Positions 1,094 through 19,800 of a stretch of 64,000 nucleotides of DNA are shown here, piece after piece (positions within the stretch are counted from its first letter, which is position 1; every line of letters begins with the position of its first letter). The stretch lies in contig NZ_KV917372.1 in NCBI RefSeq assembly GCF_002019635.1, positions 1,860,001-1,924,000 of the forward strand. The letters run 5' to 3'. The position numbers and the translations under genes were made by a program. The stretch comes from Metabacillus halosaccharovorans (lineage in GTDB: Bacteria; Bacillota; Bacilli; Bacillales; Bacillaceae). The notes below the pieces were generated by a model, which did no database searches, had not been told where the DNA came from, and was given only the letters and a program-made list of their open reading frames with translations.

Positions 1094-2041
1094 TTACTTA
1101 ATAATTTTCCCGGATTTATCCCATGGCATTTCTCTGCCCCAAGCATCGTTTGGATTTTCTGGAAGGCTCCATCTGTAAGGACCAAAATCAGGTGCAAACA
1201 CTAAATGTGCTCCTGCATACAACTCAAAACGATTTCCGCCCGGCTCATCAACATAGAAGAAAAAACCTTCGGCTAGAGCATGACGAGTTGGTCCACCCAT
1301 TGCTAGCTCGTAACCGCTTTCGATAATGTGATCGGCTGCTAATAAAACCTCTTCTCTACTCTCAACTGCGTAACAAACGTGATTGAATCCGCCTGGCTTT
1401 CCATTGTGAGATTTTAAGAAAGCAATATCATGAGAAAGATTTGTTACAGAAAGCCAAGCACCGATTTCAGGACTTCCTGGTTCATTTGCATCTAAAAAGA
1501 TTCCTTCATTATAACGGAATCCGATATTTTGATAGAATTCACGATCTTTTGTCACATCATTACTATGTAGGGTAATGTGATCAATACGACGTGGAGAAAT
1601 TCCGCGTCCTGGATTTTTTTGCGGACGGTTTTTCCATTTACTTTGAAGTGCTGCAGGTGCTTCATAAACTTCTACATCCCAGAAGATTTCCTCTAAATGA
1701 CCATCAGGTGACGTAAATTGGTACGCACGACCATGTCCTAAGTCACCTTCAATCCAGCCAATTCCTTGACCCAGCTTTTCAATCTGAGCTGCTGCTTCTT
1801 CAAGAGCCGCCGGACTATCAGCACGCCAGCCAATATGACCAAGACCAGGTTCTGCCCCCTCTGTAATCTTTAAACTGTGGTGATAATGTTCACCCCATGC
1901 ACGGAAATAAACGGAATTCCCCTTTCTCCCTGACTCCTCTAAACCGATAATATTTTTAAAGAAATCTGCTGATTCTTCTAATTTTGGGCTGATTAATTCA
2001 ACATGAGCTAAATGTGAAAAATAATGTGGATTTTTATACAT
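1094..2041 (-). CDS. two-domain VOC protein, probable extradiol (catechol 2,3-type) dioxygenase
   Basis: The protein has 315 residues. I start it at the ATG at 2041 because GGAGG sits 8 bases upstream; the frame extends a few codons further only through a TTG. Two tandem VOC (glyoxalase/dioxygenase) domains cover residues ~10-125 and ~152-285. In the second, His155 (RIDHITLH), His221 (FNHVCYAV) and Glu273 (RFELYAG) have the spacing of the 2-His-1-carboxylate iron site of type I extradiol dioxygenases. The first domain has no obvious metal triad, as is usual for this fold. The predicted reaction is meta-cleavage of a catechol-type ring. A cre-like site lies in the upstream gap. The gene sits between an AraC regulator and an alpha/beta hydrolase, which fits a short aromatic-ring operon. 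Substrate is not assignable. Confidence 0.85.
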   Translation of the reverse strand: MYKNPHYFSHLAHVELISPKLEESADFFKNIIGLEESGRKGNSVYFRAWGEHYHHSLKITEGAEPGLGHIGWRADSPAALEEAAAQIEKLGQGIGWIEGDLGHGRAYQFTSPDGHLEEIFWDVEVYEAPAALQSKWKNRPQKNPGRGISPRRIDHITLHSNDVTKDREFYQNIGFRYNEGIFLDANEPGSPEIGAWLSVTNLSHDIAFLKSHNGKPGGFNHVCYAVESREEVLLAADHIIESGYELAMGGPTRHALAEGFFFYVDEPGGNRFELYAGAHLVFAPDFGPYRWSLPENPNDAWGREMPWDKSGKIIK

Positions 2042-2123
2042 AACGTAACCCTCCAATAATAAGTTTTTTAAAAGCAGCCTTGTAAAAGCTGTGTATTTAA
2101 CTTAATTATAAGGAAGGTTATTT

Positions 2124-2141: not shown

Positions 2142-3089
2142 TTATGAAAAATCATACCGATTTTTATCTTTTTCTAAATATTTATATAAATAACGAATGT
2201 CATTTTCTTCCACGAATTCATATCCTTCTACCCCCTCTTTTTTCCTTCGAGGAGTTGTAAAAGATGTTGATTGCTTCTTTCGATATTGATGTGGTGTTGT
2301 ATGAAACGTATCTTTAAATAACTTATGGAATGTGTTTAAGTTAGTAAACCCACACTCCATTGCGATCTGTATGATGGGTAAATCTGTTTCTAATAAATAA
2401 TAAAGAGCATGTTCGAGCCGAATTCCATTTAAATATTTAAGAAATGTTTGCCCCATATGCTGTTGAAAATATCTAGATAAGTATGGAGGAGTTAACTGCT
2501 CGGTTTCTGCTAGTTCTTCTAATGTAAGAGGATGCATGTAATGTTTCTCTATGTAGTCAGTAATTCTGTTCATACGTTCAATATTTTTTTTACTGGTTTG
2601 TTTTAATTCATGTTGATTTTTCATCTTGAAGTCCGTAACAAGATGATAGATTGTGTCCAATAGAAGTGAATGAACCTTTAAATCATAGTTTTCCTTTTTT
2701 TGTTTTACTGTTAGACATAACTGAGCGAGCAATGTTCGAATTTTATTAAATTGCTGCTGATTTTCATGGAGAAAAGATTGGCATTGAAATCGTTCTTGTT
2801 CTATCGTCATATAGCATTTTTTTATAAATGAAATGGGAATTTGAACAATCAATATCGTATTCTCTTCATCTGATTCAACTCCGTGAACTTCATTACTATT
2901 AATAAGCAGGAGGTCATTTTCATGTAAGATACAATCTTCTCTTCCAACGTAAACGCGCACCTTCCCCTTTAACACTAATAAAAACTCAATTCGGTCATGC
3001 CAATGCATGGCTACGTATTTCACCGTTGTCATTAGTAAGAATACGGGTACTTCTTCGTTTACGACGACGCTTTCGTATGGGTAGTTCAT
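2142..3089 (-). CDS. AraC-family transcriptional regulator with cupin sensor domain
   Basis: The protein has 315 residues. An N-terminal cupin-like effector domain (~1-100) contains the HWHDRIEFLLVLKG region typical of AraC sugar or aromatic sensors. A C-terminal AraC double helix-turn-helix spans ~190-290, with the segments LEELAETEQLTPPYLSRYF and IAMECGFTNLNTFHKLFK. The start has a GGAGGG ribosome site. It is followed on the same strand, after a gap with a cre-like site, by the dioxygenase and hydrolase genes, so it is the likely local activator of those genes. The N-terminal half resembles that of the AraC-GH39 fusion at 10266-12788, which suggests related inducers. The ligand is unknown. 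Confidence 0.85.
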   Translation of the reverse strand: MNYPYESVVVNEEVPVFLLMTTVKYVAMHWHDRIEFLLVLKGKVRVYVGREDCILHENDLLLINSNEVHGVESDEENTILIVQIPISFIKKCYMTIEQERFQCQSFLHENQQQFNKIRTLLAQLCLTVKQKKENYDLKVHSLLLDTIYHLVTDFKMKNQHELKQTSKKNIERMNRITDYIEKHYMHPLTLEELAETEQLTPPYLSRYFQQHMGQTFLKYLNGIRLEHALYYLLETDLPIIQIAMECGFTNLNTFHKLFKDTFHTTPHQYRKKQSTSFTTPRRKKEGVEGYEFVEENDIRYLYKYLEKDKNRYDFS

Positions 3090-3830: not shown

Positions 3831-5207
3831 TTAGCTTTTCTCACTTAATTCTCGCACAATTTGTGGATGAATCTTATCTATTTTATAAAATGATGTCGCT
3901 ATAATTTGTAATACTGAAACTAAAATTGGTATAAAGAAATAAAGAAAATTAATTGAATTTACAGCTGACTCTGTAACGTTCTGCGCATCATAGCCTACGA
4001 AAGCCAATACATAGCCTACTACTGCCCCCCCGATTGCCATACCTACTTTTGTTGCAAAACTATACCCAGCATATAGAGTACCTTCAGTACGCTTTCCAAA
4101 TTTCCATTCATTGTAGTCTACTGAGTTAGCAGTCATACTGAACACGGAACCAGCAGATAAAGCATTAAAAAGATTTGCTATAAAATATATGGTAATAAAA
4201 AGTACTTGGTTATCAGCAAATAACGGTAAAACTGCAAAGCCCAAAATAAAGGTAATCTGAGAAATTATATTTCCTTTACGAAGTTGAAATTTTTTCAAGT
4301 ATACCGGCGTTAGAAATGATGATACGAAAACTGCGACGTAAAATAAAGACAATAAAATAGAAATCATCGCTGGATTTTTTAGCACTTGCATACAGTAAAA
4401 GATAGTTATTGATACAATTGCTCCAATTTTTATAAACATTAACAGTGAGAAGATAACTGTTGAAACCCAAGGACCATTCTTGAATGCAGTTTTATATGTT
4501 TCAAGAATGCTACCTTTCTCCCTAGTTACAGGCTTTTGTTCAACAAAACGTTCTTTACAATTTTTCACTATAACTAAAAAGGAGACACTGCAGATTGTCG
4601 CAAAGATAATAGTGGTCCATAAAAAACCTTGTTGCTGATTGCCACCGCCTAAATAACTAACTAAAGGCAGCGTTCCAACTGACACTAATATATTTCCCAG
4701 TGCCATCCCACCCATACGAATACTTGATAGTTGATTTTTTTCATTTGAATCTCTAGTCATAAGAGGCATTAAAGCTCCATATGGAATATTTACAACTGAG
4801 TATAATAATCCACAAATAATAAATGTTACATAAGCATAGATAATTTTAGTTGTATCCGAACCATTAACTGTCGTAAAAGATAATACATAAAAAACACTCA
4901 ATGGAATGATCCCGAAAATAATATAAGGTTTTGTGCGTCCCCATTTAGAGTATGTTCGGTCAATAAACCCACCAATAACAGGATCTATAAATGCATCAAG
5001 TACTCGTGAAACAAGGAATATAGTCCCCGTAGCAGCAACTGGAATAAAAGCTACGTCTGTATAAAAATAAAGTAAGAAGCTTCCAATAACTCCCCACATT
5101 AAATTAGAAGCAAAGTCACCAAAACCATAACTAAATTTTTCCTTAATGCTTAATTTTTCTGTTTCAACTGATATCGCTTGTGTATTCGTAACTTTTTCAA
5201 TTTCCAT
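3831..5207 (-). CDS. GPH-family (glycoside-pentoside-hexuronide) cation symporter
   Basis: The protein has 458 residues and about 12 hydrophobic membrane segments. The N-terminal part has features of GPH/MelB-type carriers: FSYGFGDFASNLMW, followed by DAFIDPVIGGFIDRT with the conserved acidic residues used for cation coupling in this family, and RTKPYIIFG. The family imports glycosides together with H+ or Na+ across the cytoplasmic membrane. The start has an AAGGGGG ribosome site. Two cre-like sites lie in the ~630-base upstream gap. Its place next to the C-glycoside deglycosidase genes makes it the likely importer of that substrate; this is inference from context. Confidence 0.88.
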   Translation of the reverse strand: MEIEKVTNTQAISVETEKLSIKEKFSYGFGDFASNLMWGVIGSFLLYFYTDVAFIPVAATGTIFLVSRVLDAFIDPVIGGFIDRTYSKWGRTKPYIIFGIIPLSVFYVLSFTTVNGSDTTKIIYAYVTFIICGLLYSVVNIPYGALMPLMTRDSNEKNQLSSIRMGGMALGNILVSVGTLPLVSYLGGGNQQQGFLWTTIIFATICSVSFLVIVKNCKERFVEQKPVTREKGSILETYKTAFKNGPWVSTVIFSLLMFIKIGAIVSITIFYCMQVLKNPAMISILLSLFYVAVFVSSFLTPVYLKKFQLRKGNIISQITFILGFAVLPLFADNQVLFITIYFIANLFNALSAGSVFSMTANSVDYNEWKFGKRTEGTLYAGYSFATKVGMAIGGAVVGYVLAFVGYDAQNVTESAVNSINFLYFFIPILVSVLQIIATSFYKIDKIHPQIVRELSEKS

Positions 5208-5736
5208 TACTATTCCCCCTTTATTTTAAAGGTCAAAGTTAGTTTATTTTTTCAAAAGATTAATAGTATATTATACTTTTAGCTCATACACTCTTTAAAA
5301 ATATAAGTAGCAACCCCATTTTATATAGATTTTACGTGCCCCTTTTTAGCAATCGCTTACAATAATGTATTAAATATTTCTTGTTTACCTGCTTTAAAAC
5401 TTTATACTCCTTCCTTAATTACTTTTTACGTATACGCTTACATTCATTTTAAATCCTTTCCCAATCTAGTCCCTCTTTATAATTAACTTAATATATATAT
5501 AATTCTATCCAAATCTTTAATTAATTTTGGTCAAGTAAGAACTGGTTAATTTTTTTGCTATCATTTTTAACCACTTATCATTATTAGGTTTAATTAGTTA
5601 TTATTTTAAAAGTTATATCATTACAGGCTATGTTTTTGGGACTTATACATAAAGTTTGATTACCCATGGTTAATATATAGGTGTTTAGAATATTATTCCC
5701 TTCTTAAATTAAGAAAAGAAGCATATTTCACTAAAA
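5208..5736. other. AT-rich intergenic region, promoter side of the symporter gene
   Basis: About 530 very AT-rich bases without a credible reading frame. It contains two cre-like sites (5348-5362 and 5429-5443) and presumably the symporter promoter. Nothing else was recognised. Confidence 0.5.
5348..5362 (-). promoter_or_regulatory. cre-like site upstream of the symporter gene
   Basis: Read on the minus strand, TTGTAAGCGATTGCT fits WTGNAANCGNWNNCW fully. A second, near-perfect copy (ATGTAAGCGTATACG, one end mismatch) lies at 5429-5443. Both are 140-240 bases upstream of the symporter start. Confidence 0.55.
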
Positions 5737-5763
5737 ATGGCCCCAATATTATATCGGGGCCAT
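5737..5763 (-). terminator. rho-independent terminator after the FAD monooxygenase
   Basis: Arms ATGGCCCC / GGGGCCAT enclose an 11-base loop. Ts follow on the minus strand only. It lies 75 bases past the monooxygenase stop. Confidence 0.75.
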
Positions 5764-5838: not shown

Positions 5839-7116
5839 CTAATGATTAATAGTTTTTCCATTTTTGTATGCAGCAACCCCAGTCATAGCTTGAGGCGGGT
5901 TCTTTCCTTCTAAATCAAGAACTGTCTTAAGAAGAGTTTCAGCCTCTAGCACACTATTTTTTACGATTTGCCTCTCTGGGAATTTAGTATAATCTAATAG
6001 AAAATCTCTGAGGATACGAAGGGATTTAGGAGAATTATGAAAAAGCTTTCCTAAAGTCTTAGCAAATCCTACTACGTTATTTGTATAGTTAACTCTCTGA
6101 TTATCAAATTTTAATAACCCATCATGAAGATCATTTAAATTAGAAAGATCGACACCTGCTAAATATTTTCCCAAGAAATATCCATCCTCAAGTGCCATTC
6201 CCGCACCATAGGCTGCATATGGTGAAGTAGGATGGGCTGCATCTCCAAGAATTGTTACACGTCCTTTTGACCAAGCAGATAAAGGATCTCTGTACTTTAT
6301 AAGCCAGCGGAATAAGTTTTGTGAATTAGTTGCCATAAGAATTTCTGGTACTGGATAAGCAAAGTTTCTTAATTTTTCACTAATATATTTAAGCGGATCA
6401 CTCGGTTCAGGCTGTTCTTCCGTGCATGGTTCCACGAACCACCATTCAAAACAGTTTTTTTCATTATATACAAGTGGTGAATAACCAAATTGATGTAAAT
6501 CACTGTGGTTTAAAACAATTTCATTTCTATCTGGTCCTTCTAACTCGGACCAGCCAAGCCATACTGCAATTCCTAAATGTTGTAATTCTGATTCTCCCCA
6601 AAGTTGCTTTCGTACTAGAGAATTTACTCCGTCAGCTCCGACTAATAAATCTGCTGTATAAGACTTTCCATCCTCAAAAAGAATGTTCACTCCATCAGCA
6701 TCCTCTTTATAGGAGATGAATTGATGATCAGTTACAATCATTTCTTCTTGAATCTTGTCTAACAGTCGCTTATAAAGGTCAGAGCGCATGAGACCCGCCA
6801 TCCACCCTGAGACATTTGCTTTGTTTAATAAATCCTTATCAAATTGTTGTAGAACTCTTTGATGACCATCATACCGTCTAAATCTTTGAGTATCAGTAGT
6901 TGCCAAGTCATCTGCATAAATTCCATAACTGCGTAAAATATTAATGCCAATTGCATTAAGAATAATTGCTCCTCCTAGAGGTTTAATCTCTTTATGTCTT
7001 TCAAATATTTTAACGTCAAAACCTGCCTGAGTTAGAGCAATACCTGCTGATAATCCACCTGGTCCTGCTCCGATAATAGCTACTTTTTTTCTTGGTTTAT
7101 TGTTACTTTTACTCAC
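5839..7116 (-). CDS. FAD-dependent aromatic monooxygenase (salicylate / p-hydroxybenzoate hydroxylase type)
   Basis: The protein has 425 residues. It has the three hallmarks of class A flavoprotein hydroxylases: the Rossmann GAGPGG near residues 16-21 with ERH at the end of beta-2, the middle motif GADGVNSLVR (about 160-170), and the C-terminal ribose-binding GDAAHPTSPYAAYGAGMALEDG (about 300-320). Members use NAD(P)H and O2 to hydroxylate phenolic rings in the cytoplasm. The start is GTG at 7116 with an AAAGGATG site; a terminator follows. It is on the same strand as the C-glycoside deglycosidase genes 275 bases upstream, so it probably modifies the freed or intact aglycone. The exact substrate is unknown. 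Confidence 0.85.
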   Translation of the reverse strand: MSKSNNKPRKKVAIIGAGPGGLSAGIALTQAGFDVKIFERHKEIKPLGGAIILNAIGINILRSYGIYADDLATTDTQRFRRYDGHQRVLQQFDKDLLNKANVSGWMAGLMRSDLYKRLLDKIQEEMIVTDHQFISYKEDADGVNILFEDGKSYTADLLVGADGVNSLVRKQLWGESELQHLGIAVWLGWSELEGPDRNEIVLNHSDLHQFGYSPLVYNEKNCFEWWFVEPCTEEQPEPSDPLKYISEKLRNFAYPVPEILMATNSQNLFRWLIKYRDPLSAWSKGRVTILGDAAHPTSPYAAYGAGMALEDGYFLGKYLAGVDLSNLNDLHDGLLKFDNQRVNYTNNVVGFAKTLGKLFHNSPKSLRILRDFLLDYTKFPERQIVKNSVLEAETLLKTVLDLEGKNPPQAMTGVAAYKNGKTINH

Positions 7117-7391: not shown

Positions 7392-7796
7392 TTACACTAA
7401 AAGAAGTCTTCTCTTATGTGGTTTTGTACCAAAAACTGTATCTATTGATGGAGGTAAATAAGAAGCACTATATAAATAACTTACTTCAATATCATGGTAA
7501 CCGGGTTCAAGGCCACCTTCCTTAGATACGGTTAAAGTAGCAGGCTCTAACAGTCCCCAATGGACATCTCCAAGCGTTGCCATTTCACTTTGAGTGTAAG
7601 TTATACCACTGATAGTCCATTTAATTTGTTCTCCAGAAAATGTTTCTCCATCTACTTTTACCGTTGCTGGGCGTAACTGTGAAAGCCAAAGACCTCTATA
7701 ATATAAAGACCTAATATTCACTTGGAAACCAATTACTTTTCCATCACTTTCTACGTTTCTAAATCCTCTAGATTGGATACTTTCTTTTTCTAACAT
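7392..7796 (-). CDS. C-glycoside deglycosidase beta subunit (DUF6379 family)
   Basis: The protein has 134 residues. It resembles the small beta-sandwich subunit of heterodimeric C-glycoside deglycosidases (CarC, DfgB, DgpC; DUF6379): SRGFRNVESDGKVIGFQVN at the N-terminus, YYRGLWLSQLRP, VDGETFSGEQI, WGLLEPATLTV, and a basic C-terminus ending in RRLLLV. In characterised enzymes this subunit packs on a TIM-barrel alpha subunit, and the pair cleaves the C-C bond of a 3-oxo-C-glucoside. It starts 13 bases after the stop of exactly such a TIM-barrel gene, with an AAGGAGG site, so the two are translated together. Recognition rests on remembered family features, not a search. I know of no other role for this family. 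Confidence 0.8.
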   Translation of the reverse strand: MLEKESIQSRGFRNVESDGKVIGFQVNIRSLYYRGLWLSQLRPATVKVDGETFSGEQIKWTISGITYTQSEMATLGDVHWGLLEPATLTVSKEGGLEPGYHDIEVSYLYSASYLPPSIDTVFGTKPHKRRLLLV

Positions 7797-7809
7797 GATA
7801 TATTCCTCC

Positions 7810-8703
7810 TTACTCTCCTAATATCTTTTTCATCATGATATGATGCTTACGTACTTGCTCAGGAGCTGTTCCTAAAACACCTTTATTAGGCCCTTCATAT
7901 TCACTTACCATATAACCATCCCATTTATGCTCAACTAACGTATTAAGTATCTTTTCATAAGGAATTGTTACTTCCTCAAACTCATCAGATACCTTAATAA
8001 ATTTTGCATGGCAACAATAAATATAAGGTAAAAGTGGGATAATATCTTCAACTGGGCTGTGTTCAGATTCTGGCATGATGAAATCATCAGGACCCCATTC
8101 ATCCTTCGGTAATCGTTCTGTTTGAAACACACCAAAGTCCATACATAAACCAAAATGTTTTGTTCCTGTCTTTTTGATGAATTCAACATAATCATCAACC
8201 ATTTTTGATTTTAGTAGTGTCGGTGGATGTATTTCTGGACACATAACAACATCATACTTTTCAGCCATAGGCAGTGCCTTTGCAATAAATTCTGACCAAT
8301 TTTCTACGGGTGTTAGAGTTTCATCAATTACCCCTAATTTTGTTCGAAGAACCTTAAACCCTAGCCGATTAGCAAGTTTAAAATCTTGTATTAGCATATT
8401 GTAAGATTCTTCAGTTGTAAGCTGTCTTCCCTCAAACAAACGAGAATCTACCCAATGACCATATTCAGCAGGCACGATATCATATTTCTCAATTAATTTA
8501 TCCCATTTTTCAAGCCATTCATTACTTGGATTTGGATATCCTTCGATATGTGCGTTTGCAAGAATTTCTAATCCTCTAGCACCCATATCATTCATTTCTT
8601 TAAACATATCTTCTAAATCCATCGTTACACCAAATTCCGCGGCATAACTATAAAGAGAAACCCCTCTTTTTGGTTTTCCAACCTTATTTAATTCAGTACT
8701 CAT
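7810..8703 (-). CDS. C-glycoside deglycosidase alpha subunit (xylose-isomerase-like TIM barrel)
   Basis: The protein has 297 residues and a sugar-phosphate isomerase/epimerase-like TIM barrel. The expected metal ligands are present: Glu157 (CPEIHPP), Asp189 (CMDFG), His232 (CCHAKF) and Glu268 or Glu270 (VSEYEG). His159 beside the first ligand is a further candidate active-site residue. Alpha subunits of C-glycoside deglycosidases (CarB, DfgA, DgpB) have this fold and use a divalent metal to start elimination of the aglycone from the 3-oxo sugar. The adjoining DUF6379 gene makes this assignment much more likely than a plain epimerase. The Gfo/Idh/MocA oxidoreductase 160 bases upstream would make the 3-oxo intermediate. 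The ribosome site is AAGGGAG. Confidence 0.78.
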   Translation of the reverse strand: MSTELNKVGKPKRGVSLYSYAAEFGVTMDLEDMFKEMNDMGARGLEILANAHIEGYPNPSNEWLEKWDKLIEKYDIVPAEYGHWVDSRLFEGRQLTTEESYNMLIQDFKLANRLGFKVLRTKLGVIDETLTPVENWSEFIAKALPMAEKYDVVMCPEIHPPTLLKSKMVDDYVEFIKKTGTKHFGLCMDFGVFQTERLPKDEWGPDDFIMPESEHSPVEDIIPLLPYIYCCHAKFIKVSDEFEEVTIPYEKILNTLVEHKWDGYMVSEYEGPNKGVLGTAPEQVRKHHIMMKKILGE

Positions 8704-8863
8704 ATTTCTTCTCCCTTCTGACTCTCTTTTTACTATTACTATCTGAAGTTTAAAAGTTTAAAACTATGGCTTTCGCTTTAGTACTTAACGATATGCTACT
8801 ATTTTCTACCTTTTAACGTCTGATTACTTGATTTTAAAACTCATATCCTATTTATTCTCTTTA

Positions 8864-9958
8864 TTAAAACTTTATAACTTCACCAGTTTCAGCTGATTTA
8901 TAAATGGCTTCCAAGATTTGTGTAACGACAAGTGCTTGCTCTGGCTTAACTACTGGTTCAGTATCATTTAAAATACAATCAATCCATTGCGTTGCTTCAG
9001 CATCACGTTGTTCTAAGGTAGCACCTGCAAACCCAAATACTCCACCAGCATCTGAAGGCTGTGATTCCACTAGTTGGTTATACTCAGCCTTGTTGAACAC
9101 TGTATATCCCTGATCCATAAAAGCTTTACCAAACATTTCAGCTCCGCCTTCTGTTCCACAAAGTGTCACTTGAGCTTCTTTCGGATTAATCATATTTAAT
9201 GCCCATGCCGCTTCTAAATAGATTGTTGCACCATTTTCCATCTTAATAAAACCAAAAGCAGAGTCTTCTGTTTCAAAGGTATCTGGATCCCAAGGTCCAA
9301 ACATATTCCCCTCAGGTTTATCTTTTAATTTCTGATAAGTTGATCCAAACACACTCTTTGGTTTGTAGTTATCCATGAACCATAATGTTAAGTCTAATGC
9401 ATGAGTACCGATATCGATTAATGGACCCCCACCTTGTTTTTCTTTATCTGGGAAAACTCCCCAAGTTGGTACACCACGACGTCTAACAGCATGTGCCTTT
9501 GCCATATAAATGTCACCAAGTCTATTTTCCTGACAAGCTTGATAAGTAGCTAATGAATCTGCTCGAAAACGATTTTGATAACCGACCGTTAACTTTTTAC
9601 CAGTCCTTTTTGCAGCATCTAACATTTTCTTTCCTTCTTCATAGTTAATAGCCATTGGTTTTTCACACATAACATGCTTTCCCGCTTCTAAGGAGTCAAC
9701 AGTAATATAAGAATGTGAAATATTTGGAGTTAGTACATGAATAACATCGATACTGTTATCTTTTAATAATTCTTTGTAATCTTCACATACAAATGCATCA
9801 TCTGTTCCATATTCTTTAGCAGCTTGTTCAGCTCTTTCCAACTCAATGTCACAAAAAGCTACTAATTCCACTTTATCCTTTAGTTTTGCTAGAGCTGGAA
9901 GGTGTTTTTGATTAGCTATCCCGCCACATCCAATAATACCTATTTTTAATTTTTTCAT
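8864..9958 (-). CDS. Gfo/Idh/MocA-family NAD(P)-dependent sugar oxidoreductase (candidate C-glycoside 3-dehydrogenase)
   Basis: The protein has 364 residues. A Rossmann domain begins GIIGCGGIANQKHL (residues 7-20). The family signature EKP is at 99-101 (MCEKPMAI), and a C-terminal alpha/beta substrate domain contains GGGPLIDIGTHALDLTLWFM with its conserved Asp and His. Family members oxidise or reduce sugar hydroxyls, often at C3. In the puerarin-degrading bacterium strain PUE, an oxidoreductase of this family (DgpA) is reported to act ahead of the C-C bond-cleaving subunits. Gene order here (oxidoreductase, alpha, beta on one strand) supports the same role by inference. The GGAGGA site is strong, and a full cre match lies about 50 bases upstream of the start. 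Confidence 0.85.
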   Translation of the reverse strand: MKKLKIGIIGCGGIANQKHLPALAKLKDKVELVAFCDIELERAEQAAKEYGTDDAFVCEDYKELLKDNSIDVIHVLTPNISHSYITVDSLEAGKHVMCEKPMAINYEEGKKMLDAAKRTGKKLTVGYQNRFRADSLATYQACQENRLGDIYMAKAHAVRRRGVPTWGVFPDKEKQGGGPLIDIGTHALDLTLWFMDNYKPKSVFGSTYQKLKDKPEGNMFGPWDPDTFETEDSAFGFIKMENGATIYLEAAWALNMINPKEAQVTLCGTEGGAEMFGKAFMDQGYTVFNKAEYNQLVESQPSDAGGVFGFAGATLEQRDAEATQWIDCILNDTEPVVKPEQALVVTQILEAIYKSAETGEVIKF

Positions 9959-10007: not shown

Positions 10008-10022
10008 TGTTTTCGCTTACAT
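10008..10022 (-). promoter_or_regulatory. cre site upstream of the oxidoreductase-deglycosidase operon
   Basis: On the minus strand ATGTAAGCGAAAACA matches WTGNAANCGNWNNCW at all positions. It is 50-64 bases upstream of the oxidoreductase start, a position where CcpA binding would block the promoter. It is in a ~300-base gap otherwise holding only the terminator at 10221-10261. Confidence 0.6.
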
Positions 10023-10265: not shown

Positions 10266-12788
10266 TTACTCAAATAATAAATTTAATTCAAATAATCTTA
10301 TCTCGTGTGGATTAAGTTTTCCTTTTAATTCGATTCTATTATCTTCTACTAGATTATGCTTTACATTCATACTAGGTATACAAATTTCTTTTAAGTATTT
10401 TATTTCATCAGGCTTCATGTCTTCCACTCCACCAAACTTCAACCATTCATCAAGTACACTACCATGTTTCCTGTTTAATTTTATTTCTTTTATACGGTAT
10501 TTTCCATTTTTAATGCCTTGTATTTCTACTGAAAGATCTAAAAGATCAGTATCCTCAAAGATATCATTTTGCTGTTTTATTCCCATACTGCCTTCTGGAT
10601 GTAGATAATAGGAAAAATCGAAATGTTTATAGTTAAAACATAATAATTGATATCGATCACCGGACTTTTTAGTAACAACATAGTTTTCACCCTTAGAAAC
10701 AAGAATCTCACCCAATTGTTTTAAAAGGACAAAGGCATGATAACTAGGTTTTTTTATCCCATTCTTTGTTAATAGTCCTGCTCCCCCATAAAGAAAATTC
10801 TTTGAATCTCTGTAATCACTAAATAAATCAGATGTTAACCAGTAACCAATCATGTTAATTTTATGTTGAGCTAAGTTATCAATAATATTCTTAACTAAAT
10901 AGGTTGCTTTATAACAACTATCATTTAAAAAATTGCGGTTGGAAATCGATAGATTCCACTCGGTAACATTTAATTCTAATTCTTCCATTTCAGCCATTAT
11001 TAACGATTTCTTTACTTGATTTAGCTTTTGGTTAATATAGTTAGGATTAGAGGATTGAAGGTTTCTTATAGGGATATGATTTTTATCCGTTTCAAGCTCA
11101 ATTGGATATAAATAAATTGAGAGAAAGTCTGGCTGTATCTTTTCTTTTTTCCATTGCATTAGAAGCAAATCAAGTTTATCTCCTTCTAAATTCATACTCA
11201 GACCACACCCACCAACCTTTGCAGAAGGAACAAGTTCGTTAGCAATTTTTTTAAACATGCTAAATACTTTATAATACTCTTCAAACTGGTTAGGTTCTTT
11301 TAATATATTATTATTTATATTCTCCAAAAATTCCCTTCTACCTTGTTCACCCGGAACTACAAAATTCATGTTCGGCCTCCAAATTTCGAAGTACCATGTT
11401 TCAACTTCCTCAATTCCAAAACGATCAACACATTGTAATAAAAAAGCACGAGCTATATTTCCCCACTCTTCTAATGTTTTGTTGCTGATTGTTTGAATAA
11501 TAAAAGAATCTTCTATTGTCTTTGATAATATCTTTGGTTTAGGACCTAGTTCAATAAAGGGTTTTAAATTATTTTTAACTAAGAAATCTAAAAGCTTATT
11601 AGTGTTTGTAAAATTATAACTTACTTTATCCTCTGACCGATCTTCAACAAGCATATCATCCCCAAATATCCCCCAAAACCTCGCATATTTAAATCCTAGT
11701 TCATTTTGAAGAAAGATAATTTGTTCTTGCATATCAGAATTTAATAAATCTTTTGCATACCCAACATTAATCAATTTATTCCAATACTTCATAAAAGCAT
11801 TCATCTTACCCATTTTTATAATCTGCTTTTGTTCCTTTGCTGGAGTTTCTACTTTTGCTTGGATAGGTGCTTTGGGAATATTTTCAAGATATTGCTCGAG
11901 TTCTACTAAAGCAGCTCTAGTGTCTTGGTTATCTTCCTGAGAATCAACTTCTACTTTATCAAGAGTGTTTTTCTTTCTATAATCTAATGGTTTTTGTTTA
12001 TAGTATTCTTTAAATACACGGTTAAATGCCGATAAATTAGGAAAACCATTATCTAGAGCTACCCTGGTAAGCGGTTTCACAGAATTTGTTAATTCATTAA
12101 CAGCATGAGCCAGACGAACTTCGTTTAAATATTGTGAGAAAGTTTTTCCTGTTCGTTTTTTGAAAAATTTAGACAAATATGGACTAGAGATGAAATGCGT
12201 ACTTGCAACTTCATCTAAAGTAAGTGGTTCCGAGAAATTAACCTGAATATATTCCAAAATATCGGTTAATCTATCATTTTGTCCTTTGGTACTCATTTGA
12301 TTTTCGAATTCTAAATGCTCTTTATTCTTCAAAAGTCTTGAAGTGAGGATTGAACTTAATTTATATGCTTTTTCTAATATTTCTAGTTCTGCATTATTTT
12401 GTTTTCTTTTTATATAAATCTGTAATAACTCTTCTATCGTAGACTTTATTTCCTGACTTAAGTAACCATGATTATTGATTTCTCTGTGGAATACTAGGCT
12501 TCTCTGTGTTAAATGGGAACTTAATTCTGTATAGTTTAGATGTATAATAACAAACAAGTTATCCTTATCTGATTGGAATGAATGAAATTCGTTAGAGTTA
12601 ATTAATAGAATATCAGATTGACTCATTTGATATTGTTCATTACTAATTTTCACTTGTAATTGACCCTTTATAACATAAACTAATTCTATGTCTCTATGTG
12701 CATGTTCCAAACTAGTTTGATTGCTTATTACTGATAAAGTAATGAGATTAGAATCATTTGAAGATTGGAAAGCTTGTTTATTAGTCAC
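10266..12788 (-). CDS. AraC-family regulator fused to a GH39-like (beta-xylosidase) domain
   Basis: The protein has 840 residues and starts at GTG 12788 behind GGAGGAGGG. Domain order: an N-terminal cupin (~1-100), an AraC helix-turn-helix (~175-275; LDEVASTHFISSPYLSKFF and VALDNGFPNLSAFNRVFK), a short linker, then a GH39-like TIM barrel (~330-720) and a beta-rich tail. The GH39 nucleophile region is kept (LNVTEWNLS). The acid/base motif, normally FEIWNEPN, reads FEIWRPNMN (about residue 470), so the catalytic Glu is gone. There is no signal peptide. I infer a cytoplasmic regulator whose GH39 domain binds a glycoside as ligand rather than cleaving it. It lies upstream of the deglycosidase operon and may control it. 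Confidence 0.85.
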   Translation of the reverse strand: MTNKQAFQSSNDSNLITLSVISNQTSLEHAHRDIELVYVIKGQLQVKISNEQYQMSQSDILLINSNEFHSFQSDKDNLFVIIHLNYTELSSHLTQRSLVFHREINNHGYLSQEIKSTIEELLQIYIKRKQNNAELEILEKAYKLSSILTSRLLKNKEHLEFENQMSTKGQNDRLTDILEYIQVNFSEPLTLDEVASTHFISSPYLSKFFKKRTGKTFSQYLNEVRLAHAVNELTNSVKPLTRVALDNGFPNLSAFNRVFKEYYKQKPLDYRKKNTLDKVEVDSQEDNQDTRAALVELEQYLENIPKAPIQAKVETPAKEQKQIIKMGKMNAFMKYWNKLINVGYAKDLLNSDMQEQIIFLQNELGFKYARFWGIFGDDMLVEDRSEDKVSYNFTNTNKLLDFLVKNNLKPFIELGPKPKILSKTIEDSFIIQTISNKTLEEWGNIARAFLLQCVDRFGIEEVETWYFEIWRPNMNFVVPGEQGRREFLENINNNILKEPNQFEEYYKVFSMFKKIANELVPSAKVGGCGLSMNLEGDKLDLLLMQWKKEKIQPDFLSIYLYPIELETDKNHIPIRNLQSSNPNYINQKLNQVKKSLIMAEMEELELNVTEWNLSISNRNFLNDSCYKATYLVKNIIDNLAQHKINMIGYWLTSDLFSDYRDSKNFLYGGAGLLTKNGIKKPSYHAFVLLKQLGEILVSKGENYVVTKKSGDRYQLLCFNYKHFDFSYYLHPEGSMGIKQQNDIFEDTDLLDLSVEIQGIKNGKYRIKEIKLNRKHGSVLDEWLKFGGVEDMKPDEIKYLKEICIPSMNVKHNLVEDNRIELKGKLNPHEIRLFELNLLFE

Positions 12789-13297: not shown

Positions 13298-14203
13298 TTA
13301 TACTAAATATTGCCCTAAATAATTTTTACTTATTATTATCGAATCTTTTTTGGACTTTAGCGAATCCTCGAAAGCCTTGTCTTCTACTTCAATCACTGCA
13401 TATCCGAAGTATCTTATATCTGTTAAAGCGGATACATATTTACCCCAATTCACATCACCAAGACCAGGTAATTTAGGTGAGATATATTCAAGTGGTGTGG
13501 CCATAACTCCAACATCATTTAACTTATCTTTATACACTTTTATATCTTTAAAGTGTATATGGAAGATACGATCTTTGAATTCATATATAGGCTTTAGATA
13601 ATCCATTTGTTGCCAAACAAAATGAGAGGGATCATAGTTTAAACCAAAGTTTTTATTTGGTATGATTTCAAATACTCGACGGAATATAGCCGGTGTCGTC
13701 ATTAGGTTTTGTCCTCCCGGCCACTCGTCGTTTGTAAATAACATAGGGCAATTTTCAATAGCAATTTTGACACCAAGCTCTTCAGCAAAATCAATAATGG
13801 GCTTCCATACTTCTTCCATGATTACTAGATTTTCCTCGACTGTTTTCTTTTGATTTCTCCCAATGAATGTATTGACCAGGTTCACATCAAGCTTTTTTGC
13901 TGCCTCAATACACTTCTTGATATGAGCAACATAGTATTCGCTTCTTTCTTTATCCTCATCAAGAGCATTTGGATAATAAGCAATTGCGGAAATTTTTATG
14001 CCCTTAGCTTCTGTATAGTTTGTGATGTAATCAACATCTAAGTTATCAACATCAATATGTGTTACTCCTGCATATTTGCGAACAGCTTTACCTCTCGGCC
14101 ATGCACATAATTCAACACAAGTAAAACCATTTTCTGCTGCAAAATCAATGACTTCTTCAAACGTACAACCATCTAGAATTGCACTGTTAAATCCTAGTTT
14201 CAT
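13298..14203 (-). CDS. sugar phosphate isomerase/epimerase-like TIM-barrel protein
   Basis: The protein has 301 residues and is a member of the AP-endonuclease-2/xylose-isomerase-like TIM superfamily. Probable metal ligands are Glu150 (IAIENCP), Asp191 and His194 (NYDPSHF), His217 (IFHIHFKD) and Glu272 or Glu274 (VIEVED). Such proteins epimerise or isomerise sugars, or act on 3-keto-glycosides beside a Gfo/Idh/MocA enzyme. The upstream neighbour on the same strand is such an oxidoreductase. No DUF6379 partner gene is adjacent, so a C-glycoside deglycosidase role is less likely than for the 7810-8703 gene. The start has an AAGGAGA site. Exact activity is unknown. Confidence 0.8.
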   Translation of the reverse strand: MKLGFNSAILDGCTFEEVIDFAAENGFTCVELCAWPRGKAVRKYAGVTHIDVDNLDVDYITNYTEAKGIKISAIAYYPNALDEDKERSEYYVAHIKKCIEAAKKLDVNLVNTFIGRNQKKTVEENLVIMEEVWKPIIDFAEELGVKIAIENCPMLFTNDEWPGGQNLMTTPAIFRRVFEIIPNKNFGLNYDPSHFVWQQMDYLKPIYEFKDRIFHIHFKDIKVYKDKLNDVGVMATPLEYISPKLPGLGDVNWGKYVSALTDIRYFGYAVIEVEDKAFEDSLKSKKDSIIISKNYLGQYLV

Positions 14204-14434: not shown

Positions 14435-15520
14435 TTAGCATGATAATAATTTAAGGTTCCCTCTGTTTTTTTCAAAAAATACTGGTTCATGCTTACTTGC
14501 AGATAAGTAAAAGTGGTCGATGATATTCATCATATAAACACCATGTTCAGCAGGTGCTAGTAACTCATCCTCGGAAAGAATACAGTTTGTAAAATGCTCA
14601 AACTCATTCATCAACTTTATATTTGGATTAAGATTTGGAGAAAGATCAATACACGTATCAAGTAACTCCGAATGTATTTTTAGTTCTCCATTTATGATAC
14701 TTGCGCCACCTTTTGTACCTAATAACTCAACGAATGTTTGATCTTTTTCAATATTTGAAGCCCAGCTGAATTCAAAATTCACCGTTGCTCCATCCTTAAG
14801 TCCAATGAATCCTGTTGCACTATCTTCTACGTTAAAAATACCGTTTGGATTTCCTATATAGCCATTACGATTTCGAGTTGTTGTATGTGCAAAATTTTGA
14901 TAGGTAGCTCCAGTGACATAAGATGGCTCAGGCATTCCCATTAAAAACAGTGCTAAATCAAGATAATGCACGCCAAGGTCGATCATAACTCCCCCGCCAG
15001 CAATATCCTTATTTGTAAACCAAGTTCCTCTTCCAGGAATACCACTTCGTCTGACCCACCCTGCTTTGGCCTTATAAATATCCCCTAAGTAGCCTGCATC
15101 AATTATTTTCTTTAAATAAACCGCTTCGTTTGTAAATCGGTTATTTAACCCGACCATTAATTTTTTACCTGATTTGTTCTTCGCATCACCAATTCTTTGA
15201 GCTTCCACAGCATTAATGGCTAATGGCTTTTCACAATGGACATTTACGCCATTTATTAAGGCAAAAATCGCAATGTCAGCGTGTAAAGAATTAGGTGTAC
15301 ACACACTGACCAGGTCTAAATCTTCCGAGTTAATCATATCTTTATAGCTTTTATACACTTTATCAATCTTATACTTTTCTGCTATTTTCTCAGCATTTTC
15401 AATATTCACATCACATATAGCAACTAGTTCAACATTAGGAAGACTTAAGTAATTACTTAGATGTTTTTTTTCAGCGTTACTACCAGCACCAATTAATCCG
15501 TATCTTAGTTTTTTGTTCAT
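14435..15520 (-). CDS. Gfo/Idh/MocA-family sugar oxidoreductase
   Basis: The protein has 361 residues. The nucleotide-binding motif is YGLIGAGSNAEKKHL at the N-terminus; EKP occurs in NVHCEKPLAIN near residue 97; the substrate domain includes GGGVMIDLGVHYLDLALFLM. It resembles the oxidoreductase at 8864-9958 in layout (both with RRSGIP/RRRGVP and a GGGxxIDxG segment), so the two are probably paralogues. It is flanked on the same strand by two TIM-barrel sugar isomerase-like genes; the upstream one ends 21 bases before its start, so these are co-transcribed. Likely role: NAD(P)-linked oxidation at a sugar hydroxyl of an imported glycoside or inositol-like compound. The GGAGGAGG site is strong. 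Confidence 0.82.
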   Translation of the reverse strand: MNKKLRYGLIGAGSNAEKKHLSNYLSLPNVELVAICDVNIENAEKIAEKYKIDKVYKSYKDMINSEDLDLVSVCTPNSLHADIAIFALINGVNVHCEKPLAINAVEAQRIGDAKNKSGKKLMVGLNNRFTNEAVYLKKIIDAGYLGDIYKAKAGWVRRSGIPGRGTWFTNKDIAGGGVMIDLGVHYLDLALFLMGMPEPSYVTGATYQNFAHTTTRNRNGYIGNPNGIFNVEDSATGFIGLKDGATVNFEFSWASNIEKDQTFVELLGTKGGASIINGELKIHSELLDTCIDLSPNLNPNIKLMNEFEHFTNCILSEDELLAPAEHGVYMMNIIDHFYLSASKHEPVFFEKNRGNLKLLSC

Positions 15521-15541: not shown

Positions 15542-16330
15542 TTAGAATATTAATTTCTTCATATAATCAATTGTATAGTCAATTCCTTTTTGCCCAAGTT
15601 CCCCCGACCACACGGGTGAATGAGGTTCAATACTTAATCCACCTGTATAGCCCTTCACTCTTAATAACGATATAAATGTTTTCCAATCCGTTTGGTCTAA
15701 GCCTGCTGGTGGATCATCTATTCTTTGACCGTTAATCATTAATGAACCTTTTAAATGAACATGGTTAAATCTGTCTCCCCAATCTAATGTTTCCTGTAAA
15801 TAATCTCCACCAAAATAACGACTGTGTGATGGATCAAATTTGATACCTAAATCCTTTAAATGACCGTGAATGATTTTCCAAGCTTCTGGATTATGAACAA
15901 AATTTACTTTTCTACAATTGTAGGATGAGATGTTTACTCCCTTTGGCTTAGCGTAATCAATTAAAAGTGAGAAAAAGTGGATAGCTGCAGAACAATTTTC
16001 ATAGTAAGATAGATTCTCTACATAATTACAGCCGCTTACAAAATTTGAACAACCTAATTCACTTGCAACATCAATTAACTTAAAACATTTTTCTAACTCT
16101 TTTTCTATGACATGACCTTGTTGATCAATACGAATGGACTTCCATCTACCAATAGAACCAATCTTGGTTTCATATTTGTTTTTCCATTGATTTAAGTTAT
16201 GGCGGTTACAATAGAACTCTTCTACATCATTTCCTTCATTTATACATAACTCTATAAAGTCTAATTCTTTTTGCTTTGCTTGCTGAAAACTTTCTTCCGT
16301 TGGTTTTGCGATGATTCCAAGTTGCATCAT
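15542..16330 (-). CDS. sugar phosphate isomerase/epimerase-like TIM-barrel protein
   Basis: The protein has 262 residues. It has a TIM-barrel isomerase/epimerase fold with metal-ligand segments LGIKFDPSHSRYFGGD (Asp, His), FNHVHLKGS (His) and LSIEPHSP (Glu) in the C-terminal half. The first-ligand Glu is less clear than in the two other TIM-barrel genes of the region. It is first in a three-gene set with the oxidoreductase 21 bases downstream and another TIM-barrel gene beyond. Such pairs typically act on keto-sugars. The start ATGATG follows an AAGGGG site. Precise function is not assignable. Confidence 0.75.
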   Translation of the reverse strand: MMQLGIIAKPTEESFQQAKQKELDFIELCINEGNDVEEFYCNRHNLNQWKNKYETKIGSIGRWKSIRIDQQGHVIEKELEKCFKLIDVASELGCSNFVSGCNYVENLSYYENCSAAIHFFSLLIDYAKPKGVNISSYNCRKVNFVHNPEAWKIIHGHLKDLGIKFDPSHSRYFGGDYLQETLDWGDRFNHVHLKGSLMINGQRIDDPPAGLDQTDWKTFISLLRVKGYTGGLSIEPHSPVWSGELGQKGIDYTIDYMKKLIF

Positions 16331-16861: not shown

Positions 16862-19800
16862 TTAACCTTTCAATTTCTTTAATAGAACAATCAATATCTT
16901 TGAGTTTTCTTCAGAAATTGATTTTCCAGTTTGAGCTTTTAATTGATTTTCATAAGCGTTTAGTTGGCCATTCATTGCCTGTTGATTGCCTTTTGCTTCT
17001 AAAGATTTCGCAGCTTGAAGCTTTTTCACTAGGGCGTTAGCTATTCCTACTTTCGTTACCATCGTCTCTGTTAAGCGACCTAAACTATCAAAATCAACTG
17101 TGACTGTAAATTCGATTACTGCTATTGCCGTATTACCTGCTTTGTCTGTCGCTGTAGCCGTAAATTTATTGATTCCTAGCTCAAATTCATAAGCTGGTCC
17201 CTCAATATTTTCACATTCTTTTGAAGCGATACCAGACAAATCATCGGTGATGTTACAAGTAATCTTAATATTTGAATCAACGGTATATGTTTCTTGATAG
17301 CCATTAAATTCGATTACTGGTGGTGTTGTATCCTTTGGCTTCTCGACAGTTACTTCACTCACAGCCATTAAACCACCATCGACTGTTGTTACAGTGATTT
17401 TTGCTTTCCCTTCTTTTAGGGCCGTAACTTTTCCATTTTCGTCAACGGTTGCAACTTCTTCATTATTACTAGACCATATAACCGCTTTATTGACTGCATC
17501 ATTAGGTGTAACCGTTGCAAGCAGTGTTCCTGTTTTACCTTCTGACAACGTGAATGTTTCCTGTTCAAGTGTTACACTTGTTGGATGTTGTTCAGCGCTT
17601 GGAACTTTAACTGTCGGAACTGTTTTTAGTAAGGCTTCATGTTCGGCTTTGGTTACTGGAAGTACTGTTCCATGACGTGGTCGTGCCGGTAAATCATAGT
17701 TTTCAGACACTTTCCATTCACCTGACTGCAGGTCCGTTGTTTCAAATGGAACATATCCTCTACCACCGAACTCGTCAATGAACATATACCATTTTTCTTC
17801 TGTATTTGATTTAAAGATCGTTGGACCTTCACCTTGACCAATTGAGCCTTTACCAATTCCCTCTTTAATAAGCTTGAAGTTAGGATCAAGGACTGAGTTT
17901 CCTACCTCTTGGAAGATAAACTTACCGTTTGGTGAAGATGATGTATTGCCTCTTTCATCTTTTGATAATCGATAAATTTTATCATCATGTTCAATCATTG
18001 TTGTATCAATAACTGAGTAACCTAGATCAATATAAACTTCAGGTTCTGTAAATGTATAGAAATCTCTTGTTTTACTGTACATCATTTTATTATAAGTTGA
18101 GCCACTATGATCGGCATTGTCATAGAGTTTCGATGCCCAGAAAACAATGTACTCACCTGTTGTATCATCGTAGAAGATTTCAGGTGCCCATGTATTTCCT
18201 GCCTCTGGTGGAGCTACTTCTACCATTCTTTGCTCAGACCAATTAATCAAATCTGTGGATTCCCACACCATAATCGATCGACTGCCTAATCTTTGGGCTC
18301 TGTCCCAATTCCAATCTCCATTAACTTTTAGATCTGTTGCAATTAAATAGAATTTATCACCTTCAGGAGAACGAATGATAAACGGATCTCTAAGTCCCTT
18401 TTCTCCTAATTTAGATGTGATGGCTGGTGCTCCATTGTTTAACTCATTCCATTTAAGTGGATTATTGCCTTCACTTAAAGCGAAATAAATTTGTTCACCA
18501 TTTGTGTAGCCTTCGCCTGTAAAGTAACTAAAGACATAACCTTCATAGTCTTGTTTTTGCGGCATTTCTTTCACATTTGCTAAAAATGCTTTTGTAATGG
18601 TTTCTTTATTTAATGTGATTGTTGCCGTTAATTTCACATTTTTATTTCCTTCTCCATGTGCCGGGCGTTTTACTTCACCAGTTGCTGTAATCATCTTTGA
18701 ATCACTAGATTTCCAAGTAATCTTTGATCCATTCTCACCAGATGTCGGTAATGTAAGATTACCGCGAACATCATGAATGTTATGAACCTTTAATGCTTCT
18801 GCGTCTGTTCGTACTGCGACTGAATCGTGTGGTTTCTTTACTACAGTAACAGTAAACTCTTTTGTTGCCTCATTTTTACCATCTGTAATCGTCGCTACAA
18901 TCTTAACTATTTTGTCTCCATCTTCATATGAAGGTCTGGAAACTTTTCCTTCATTCGTAATGATCTCTTGATTTTTTGATTCCCAAGTGATTGAAGTCCC
19001 ATTTGCTCCTGTCTTAGGAAATACTAAATCTGACGTGATTTTATCTTTGTTTTCATTCTTATTAATAATTGTTGAGTAATCTAATTGTTTGATCGCATTT
19101 TGAAGAAGTAAACCTTCCATTTTAGCAACTTTTTCATCTGCTTTTTCTCTTAGTTCACTAACTTCTGTAGCTGTTAAGGCTCCATTATAGATTTCAAAGT
19201 CTGCAATCATTCCTCCAAAATATGGATCAGACGAATAGAATGATCGGCCAATGAAACCACTTCTTCCGTTCGCATTATTAATCTGTGCTAATGTGTATCC
19301 ATTTGTTGAACCCGATGCTACTTCAACACCATTAACATACAATTTTAACGTCTTATCTTTGCCTGACATAACAGCTGTAACCAGTTTCCATTCATGTGAC
19401 TTTAATGAACCAGTTGTCGCATTTGCTGCGGCTTCATTACTCCAGCTTGCTGTTGCAATTCCGACTCGAGCCGAACGATCACCCGAATTTCGTTTTGGTG
19501 TTGCAAATAGATATTTATTGCTATCCTGACCTAAAGCAAATAACCATTCAGCCTCGTTTTTACCATCCCAATTCACTAAAGATGAAACGGTTACACTTTC
19601 TAACCCATTTAACACACCTTGAGGCATTTCAATATAAGAGCTTGTAGAGCCGCCTTTAAAATTGATAACCCCAGCTTCTTCCCCTTTAATAACTTCAGCG
19701 TTTTGAGGGTTGACAAGCTTACCATCAAAAGCACCTGTTTGATCTAATACTTTCGTGTCTTCCACTTTACTCATATCGTAGTCAAGAATTAACTTCGTTT

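Follow-up and report, generated by a model that had tools for sequence, protein, structure and literature searches.

A three-gene operon at positions 7392-9958 of a 64,000-nucleotide stretch of the Metabacillus halosaccharovorans genome (assembly GCF_002019635.1, contig NZ_KV917372.1; the whole stretch is called the window here) almost certainly encodes a DgpA-type glycoside 3-dehydrogenase together with a C-glycoside deglycosidase (CGD) of the DfgAB type. It probably opens a longer pathway that degrades C-glucosyl flavonoids, with C6-glucosyl flavones as the most likely substrates. Plants commonly contain C-glycosyl flavones, which withstand ordinary glycosidases, and to our knowledge little is known about their fate outside the gut. 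The operon consists of the following genes.

7392..7796, minus strand: CGD beta subunit, DfgB-like, 134 aa (PF19906 CGDB; nearest solved chain 7bvs_B)
7810..8703, minus strand: CGD alpha subunit, DfgA-like TIM barrel, 297 aa (7bvs_A, E 2e-109)
8864..9958, minus strand: DgpA-type glycoside 3-dehydrogenase of the Gfo/Idh/MocA family, 364 aa (matches to 9m3d_B DgpA1 and 7xr9 DgpA)

The identity of the deglycosidase and of DgpA, as judged from homology, is near-certain, and 3-oxidation and C-C cleavage are very probably their functions. An initial annotation, made from the letters of the DNA, had read these genes as a C-glycoside deglycosidase operon, and that reading is borne out by the CGDB match, by DfgAB as the nearest solved structures and by the dehydrogenase homologue. 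The three open reading frames (ORFs) were found on the minus strand where it had placed them; by their coordinates 13 bases separate alpha from beta, as it had said, and 160 bases separate the oxidoreductase from alpha. In a Pfam profile search the beta ORF, described earlier as a DUF6379-like small protein, matched PF19906 (CGDB) with 125.9 bits against a cut-off of 27.6, covering 112 of 112 profile positions. It is the only CGDB match in the host genome, and none was found in 14 control genomes. Its nearest solved chain is DfgB (7bvs_B, E 1.8e-32; 57 of 126 aligned residues identical, 45.2%), with DgpB second. The alpha barrel is identical to DfgA (7bvs_A) at 161 of 282 residues (57.1%). Eight solved chains match it at E <= 0.01, each being a CGD alpha or a beta-alpha fusion, a label assigned by name or by an entry common with a CGDB chain, so the proposed kinship with known CGD alphas holds, DfgA being nearest.

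The active site rests on homology as well. The metal-site residues Glu157, Asp189, His232, Lys234 and Glu268 are present in alpha, including the four which the initial annotation had named exactly, and so are the catalytic residues His159 and Glu270. They align with the metal ligands (E147, D179, H269, K271, E305) and catalytic residues (H149, E307) given for AgCGD2 in PMC8563793. Against Neobacillus drentensis the nonsynonymous (dN) and synonymous (dS) divergences were 0.142 and 1.95 for alpha and 0.158 and 1.65 for beta. Because dN is low and dS is close to saturation, both subunits are, on this comparison, under purifying selection. Proteins of the deglycosidase region are 98-99% identical to those of Bacillus sp. 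J37 (G065). The Gfo/Idh/MocA oxidoreductase noticed before the barrel turned out to be a close DgpA homologue, scoring 686.6 bits with DgpA1 of strain W974-1 (9m3d_B; 294 of 361 residues identical, 81.4%) and 480 bits with 7xr9 DgpA (215 of 362, 59.4%); the next-best solved protein after the DgpAs scored 112 bits. The idea that an unspecific Gfo/Idh/MocA protein and an unspecific barrel lie side by side by chance was rejected, as the scores of solved proteins drop steeply after DgpA and the eight barrel matches are CGD-type. No relevant paper on strains W974-1 or P581a was found among the open-access papers searched.

The enzymes of the operon thus stand as first annotated, but its extent does not, and the functional unit is probably far larger. 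A supercluster is formed by the operon, the sugar-processing genes on its right and an aglycone module on its left, and it lies beside a 4-hydroxybenzoate/protocatechuate meta-cleavage set. To the left of the beta gene the window contains:

5839..7116, minus strand: FMO1, FAD-dependent aromatic hydroxylase-like (PF01494, 93.5 bits; 93% in Bacillus sp. J37)
3831..5207, minus strand: GPH-family symporter, candidate glycoside importer (TIGR00792, 389 bits, cut-off 231)
2142..3089, minus strand: AraC-family regulator (HTH_18, AraC_binding)
1094..2056, minus strand: extradiol ring-cleaving dioxygenase (PF00903; solved catechol 2,3-dioxygenases as relatives)

Beyond the left edge of the window, with the strand unchanged, there follow an alpha/beta hydrolase, an FAA hydrolase, a cyclase, a second FAD hydroxylase (FMO2) and an MFS carrier. 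The dioxygenase, the alpha/beta hydrolase, the FAA hydrolase, the cyclase and FMO2 are taken together here as the aglycone core. The dioxygenase reached 272 bits against TIGR03211, under the cut-off of 320, and the nearest solved relative of the alpha/beta hydrolase is 2,6-dihydroxypseudooxynicotine hydrolase (92 bits). FMO1 also adjoins a DfgAB-type pair in Bacillus sp. J37, and a fragment of a 64% homologue of the GPH symporter lies at the stretch edge by the DfgAB-type pair of genome G785. A stand-alone cupin of the IfcD type was not seen among the listed ORFs of at least 100 aa left of the window and of at least 80 aa in its left part; cupin domains were found there within AraC proteins only.

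Farther left, the set fitting 4-hydroxybenzoate/protocatechuate meta-cleavage has three members above curated cut-offs, namely 4-hydroxybenzoate 3-monooxygenase (549.3 bits, cut-off 538.7), an aldolase (530.2, 286) and acetaldehyde dehydrogenase (462, 282.25). The semialdehyde dehydrogenase (682.5 bits, cut-off 693.25), both hydratase/decarboxylase proteins and the LigB-type dioxygenase fall under theirs. The amidohydrolase had no NCBIfam match at 1e-30, and a 65-residue tautomerase matched PF01361 with 56 bits. The functions of these genes presumably correspond letter by letter to praA-I. The chances that the B ring runs through protocatechuate appear evenly balanced. A protocatechuate route of such a kind is described for the pra genes of Paenibacillus (PMC12455638).

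To the right of the operon lie genes which could be handling the sugar.

10266..12788, minus strand: AraC-GH39 fusion regulator (homologue near CGD in 14 of 14 fetched CGDB neighbourhoods)
13298..14203, minus strand: IolE-like TIM barrel, candidate 2-hydroxy-3-keto-glucal hydratase (PF01261, 135 bits)
14435..15520, minus strand: second Gfo/Idh/MocA oxidoreductase, Gfo2 (PF01408, 100.8 bits; near CGD in other clusters)
15542..16330, minus strand: small TIM barrel, IolI-like (PF01261, 59.4 bits; kept beside Gfo2 in other clusters)

Whole-genome searches met 16 CGDB genomes, and the neighbourhoods of 14 were fetched (all but G730 and G1029). A DgpA homologue (at least 55% identity) and an AraC-GH39 homologue (at least 27%) were present in all 14, among them three genomes from a different family of the class and two from beyond the class. 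Given this recurrence the AraC-GH39 fusion may be a dedicated sensor. In four Neobacillus-group clusters and in G063 a ROK-family kinase gene comes directly after a CGD pair (252 bits for the ROK kinase of G063), which fits the release of glucose. A large GH106-like (alpha-L-rhamnosidase) protein was observed inside the supercluster of G461 (L062:11708-14386; PF17132, 47 bits), with homologues, judged by similar starts, in G462, G464, G465 and G065; rhamnosyl C-glycosides may also feed in through it.

The route that we propose begins with entry of the C-glucoside into the cell, perhaps through the GPH symporter. With its bound NAD, DgpA would oxidise the 3-OH of the glucose. A metal ion and His159 in the alpha-beta complex would then dearomatise the A ring and take the proton from C2 of the sugar, and the C-C bond would break by beta-elimination to give the free flavone and 2-hydroxy-3-keto-glucal. 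The latter would be hydrated, possibly by the barrel at 13298-14203, to 3-ketoglucose, which could re-oxidise the NADH of DgpA and exit as glucose. Re-oxidation of the bound NADH of a DgpA-type enzyme by 3-oxo-glucose, which becomes glucose, is described in PMC11239390. A recovery cycle of this kind would need a hydratase, and for the assignment of 13298-14203 to that step we see an even chance; no paper on a 3-keto-glucal hydratase was found among the open-access papers searched. The aglycone would be hydroxylated by FMO2 and FMO1, ring-opened by the extradiol dioxygenase and cut by the hydrolase, the FAA hydrolase and the cyclase, and the B-ring acid would pass through 4-hydroxybenzoate or protocatechuate into meta-cleavage. 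Repeated gene neighbourhood supports the links of the deglycosidase with both the sugar genes and the aglycone module, while we infer the C6 preference, the ring opening, the hydratase, the order of the aglycone steps and the B-ring route.

A metabolic link between the deglycosidase and the aglycone core is likely, and it is their co-occurrence that carries it. Among 80 genomes of the family, CGDB was found in four and the dioxygenase in six, the four all being among the six; the chance of such an overlap is 9.5e-6 assuming independent genomes, which related genomes are not. In two order-wide samples, which overlap and whose identity of membership was unchecked, CGDB was found in 2 of 397 genomes and the dioxygenase in 2 of 394, and the two genomes are identical for both markers. 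One of these two, G160, is a member of another family; within 20 kb and on a single strand it combines sugar genes and transporters with two CGD pairs and the entire core. Nine loci came from a scan of named genomes. Four CGDB matches each were seen in Neobacillus drentensis JC05, Bacillus sp. ISL-18 and two N. cucumis strains, and in the same scan none was found in Robertmurraya korlensis, Domibacillus indicus and two Metabacillus litoralis strains. Nine of the 13 core-bearing Bacillales genomes contain CGDB, and in each of them a pair lies no more than about 21 kb from the core.

The pairing was also observed beyond the Bacillota. Plasmid pDAETH-1 of Deinococcus aetherius carries on one strand, in this order, FMO2, FMO1, hydrolase, FAA hydrolase, cyclase and dioxygenase genes and then a CGD part with a GMC oxidoreductase, CGDB, alpha and a sugar transporter; its aglycone genes are 33-46% identical to the window set. 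In Novosphingobium P6W and Sphingobium TomTYG65, CGD pairs lie about 13 kb or less from genes of the same five kinds. These three were picked because the matches of several queries fell in or near one place. Homologues of FMO1 occur inside the Deinococcus CGD cluster (42%) and in a Burkholderia anthina cluster (39%), which ties FMO1 to the aglycone pathway. A wider reading is that one locus encodes complete aerobic mineralisation of C-glucosyl flavones, with the A ring hydroxylated and meta-opened, the B ring sent through 4-hydroxybenzoate and the glucose recovered, and that the coupling emerged in, or spread through, at least three phyla (Bacillota, Deinococcota and Pseudomonadota), where the candidate 3-oxidation enzymes next to it are of two unrelated kinds, DgpA and a GMC oxidoreductase. 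It could equally turn out right or wrong.

Several observations weigh against the proposed pathway. Four of the 13 core-bearing Bacillales genomes are without CGDB, so the module would also serve other substrates, and the dioxygenase was found (E <= 1e-40) in none of seven CGDB genomes outside Bacillales. The association p-values ignore kinship. The dioxygenases of the sphingomonads are about 25% identical to that of the window. FMO1, FMO2 and the dioxygenase match generic families, and their likeness to FdeE, IfcA, FdeC and IfcB is one of gene content; their being proven orthologues of these proteins was set aside for that reason. In Variovorax, disruption of the alpha/beta hydrolase gene left daidzein loss intact (PMC11069340), which weakens this gene as a marker of an essential step. 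The best solved match of the IolE-like barrel is 2zds (56.2 bits), by name a putative DNA-binding protein, while 8ro4, named 2-hydroxy-3-keto-glucal hydratase, comes second and is weak (35.4 bits, residues 129-274 of 301). Lastly, 11 plasmid records with FMO2-like and hydrolase-like genes, chosen among the matches listed (30 of 77 and 25 of 60), were examined: three carry CGD, two GH1 or GH3, and six have neither CGD nor an annotated GH1 or GH3 in the stretch seen. The six (Burkholderia anthina, Diaphorobacter, Massilia, Sphingobium yanoikuyae, Novosphingobium RL4 and Rhizobium K84) hold full or partial module-like sets. A match to the window dioxygenase at 1e-8 was absent in Diaphorobacter, Massilia and B. 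anthina, though a VOC gene is annotated, and a cyclase match was absent in the Massilia and K84 stretches.

The first two of these points would also suit a different explanation, in which the aromatic genes are unrelated, a deglycosylation unit having landed in a catabolic island for other aromatics, and the cell uses the sugar only; sugar use is the role proposed in PMC8563793. We regard it as rather unlikely, as the core accompanies CGDB in 4 of 4 Bacillales genomes from the family, 2 of 2 from the order sample and 4 of 4 from the named set, several different CGD types stand beside the same core, and the pairing was met again in two other phyla, where the Deinococcus cluster also has FMO1 homologues. 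The aglycone core seems to have been added to a deglycosylation unit of greater age, because the CGDB genomes outside Bacillales lack the dioxygenase.

With regard to the substrate, a preference of the pair for C6-glucosyl flavones such as isovitexin and isoorientin is favoured, with some reserve, over the alternatives. EuCGD (DfgAB) cleaves C6- and not C8-glucosides, it has no lid domain and a longer alpha loop (121-133), and in a docking model the C8-glucoside orientin collides with its L128 (alpha) and P115 (beta) (PMC8563793). In alignments read by eye, the window pair retains L128, P115 and the length of loop 121-133, from which the C6 prediction is drawn, and it has no lid domain. Alpha scored 369 bits with DfgAB against 125 with DgpBC, and beta 115 against 66. 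The initial annotation had suggested puerarin, isovitexin or orientin as substrates: isovitexin survives as part of the C6 prediction, while puerarin is unlikely, the pair being DfgAB-type and DfgAB leaving C8-glucosides uncut. Puerarin as the main substrate was accordingly rejected, as the pair follows C6-specific EuCGD and not PuCGD.

A preference for C8-glucosides (puerarin, orientin, vitexin) is unlikely on the same grounds, both subunits being far nearer to C6-specific DfgAB than to DgpBC and without the length of a lid domain. It would gain from the partner DgpA, which is 59% identical to 7xr9 DgpA, taken as a puerarin enzyme (its name comes from the PDB listing, and its source is presumably the puerarin-degrading strain PUE), and from PuCGD-like pairs which are additionally present in other Bacillales clusters. 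Quite improbable is a non-flavonoid aryl C-glucoside, for instance a xanthone (mangiferin) or an anthraquinone of the carminic acid type. EuCGD accepted compounds 3-5 of a six-compound set including carminic acid and mangiferin, and MiCGD prefers compound 6 of that set (PMC8563793); however, the aglycone gene content, with a hydroxylase, a glyoxalase-type dioxygenase and a pseudooxynicotine-hydrolase-like enzyme, resembles the ifc isoflavone cluster, and the 4-hydroxybenzoate set would suit a hydroxyphenyl B ring. Of equally low probability is the idea that O-glucosides are the main natural substrates, 3-oxidation and elimination freeing the aglycone and cleavage of C-glucosides being a side activity. 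D3dgpA oxidises C- and O-glycosides alike, after which the 3-oxo-O-glycosides break down (PMC11239390), O-glucosides are the substrates of DfgCD from the Eubacterium cluster of DfgAB (PMC11170127), and in Hymenobacter and Emticicia the core stands beside GH1 or GH3 genes. But the closest characterised relative, DfgAB, cleaves C6-C-glucosides, and as oxidised O-glycosides break without CGD, a dedicated pair with a complete C-C cleaving site would be superfluous.

The deglycosidase enzymes are of a known kind, and the genomes studied here extend the DgpA-CGD pairing to Bacillales. The nearest system is DfgAB with DfgE of Eubacterium cellulosolvens, which shares the two subunits (57% and 45% identity), the metal and catalytic residues, the long alpha loop and a Gfo/Idh/MocA 3-dehydrogenase partner (PMC11170127). 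It differs in coming from a gut anaerobe, and an oxidative aglycone module is undescribed for it in the accessible parts of the sources. DgpABC of the gut strain PUE has the 59% identical DgpA and the same two-step logic, whereas DgpBC carries a lid domain and acts on C8-glucosides. PurABC (Paenarthrobacter) and CarABC (Microbacterium), both from soil, likewise combine 3-oxidation and CGD cleavage for carbon-source use, with an FAD oxidase in place of DgpA; a GMC oxidoreductase does adjoin CGD in the Deinococcus cluster. Hence the earlier grouping of CarBC, DfgAB and DgpBC as pairs acting after a 3-dehydrogenase fails for CarBC, whose partner CarA is an FAD-dependent oxidase. On the aglycone side, the ifc genes of Variovorax V35 and the fde naringenin genes of Herbaspirillum also bring together an FAD hydroxylase, a glyoxalase-type dioxygenase and a pseudooxynicotine-hydrolase-like alpha/beta hydrolase (PMC11069340), a likeness of gene content; a deglycosidase is unreported there in the accessible text, and an ifcD-type cupin is unseen here. 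The pra genes for protocatechuate 2,3-cleavage of Paenibacillus sp. JJ-1b share a 4-hydroxybenzoate 3-hydroxylase, meta-cleavage enzymes and a tautomerase and differ in gene order, the LigB-type ring-opening enzyme being a putative counterpart of PraA. Among the open-access papers listed, most of them judged from title and abstract opening, no earlier report of the coupling of CGD with an aglycone module was found, and no open-access paper linking Metabacillus with a C-glycoside was found. The cluster in Bacillales (Neobacillus drentensis, N. cucumis, Bacillus sp. J37) provides a proposed route from a C-glucoside to central metabolism that can be tested gene by gene, and it offers a candidate sugar-hydration enzyme as well as new enzyme pairs for aglycone production.

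Two signals could be related to the regulation of the operon.

10008..10021, minus strand: cre-like site TGTAAGCGAAAACA, an exact match to TGNAANCGNWWNCA, 49 bases before the start codon at 9958
5737..5763, minus strand: terminator-like hairpin after FMO1, with a 12-pair stem

A cre about 50 bases upstream had been pointed out in the initial annotation, with shut-off by preferred sugars as its meaning. The exact consensus TGNAANCGNWWNCA occurs three times in the window against 0.58 expected, and 3 of 100 shuffles also reached three, so that this count by itself is modest. The core TGTAAGCG occurs eight times against 0.78 expected (positions 5354, 5435, 7205, 10014, 16033, 35304, 37259 and 61151, five of them inside the cluster), and none of 100 shuffles reached eight. 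Because of the cre-like site before the DgpA gene and the roughly 10-fold excess of TGTAAGCG over shuffles, glucose repression of the operon is plausible. The region upstream of DgpA is nearly identical in Bacillus sp. J37, which is too close for independent evidence. A promoter scan of the window gave 59 sites against 70.1 in shuffles, which is no excess, and the same scan showed no terminator directly after the beta gene.

Some further observations were made on the related clusters. In N. cucumis DSM 101566 (G465, L069:12525-14665) the DfgAB-type pair is directly followed by the gene of another, second FMO2-like hydroxylase (49%) and by a dioxygenase-like gene broken into two frames. The DfgAB-type pair of N. 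cucumis V32-6 (G464:C41:131285-132229) looks disrupted, with a short alpha frame and one internal stop in CGDB. Near the DgpA/CGD cluster of G054 there is a GMC oxidoreductase (L012:12296-13798; PF05199, PF00732), and this genome may hold both kinds of 3-oxidation enzyme. Alpha-like plasmid matches came from 12 records, and the neighbourhoods were examined for Deinococcus, TomTYG65 and Niallia; the mobilizable plasmid of Niallia sp. Man26, which is of shrimp-gut origin, has CGDB and alpha genes along with DgpA-like ones and a homologue of AraC-GH39. The plasmid dioxygenase matches of Methylobacterium, Agrobacterium vitis and Rhizobium SL42 were discarded as belonging to other pathways. On plasmids of the Bacteroidota Hymenobacter monticola and Emticicia oligotrophica the core occurs at 42-69% identity, in the former beside GH1 and protocatechuate 3,4-dioxygenase genes and in the latter beside GH3, and this is possibly an O-glucoside version of the same pathway. 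In the window itself, positions 16862-22966 encode a 2034-residue protein with a signal-like start and, by eye, a LamG/arabinanase-like look, and more sugar genes lie to its right.

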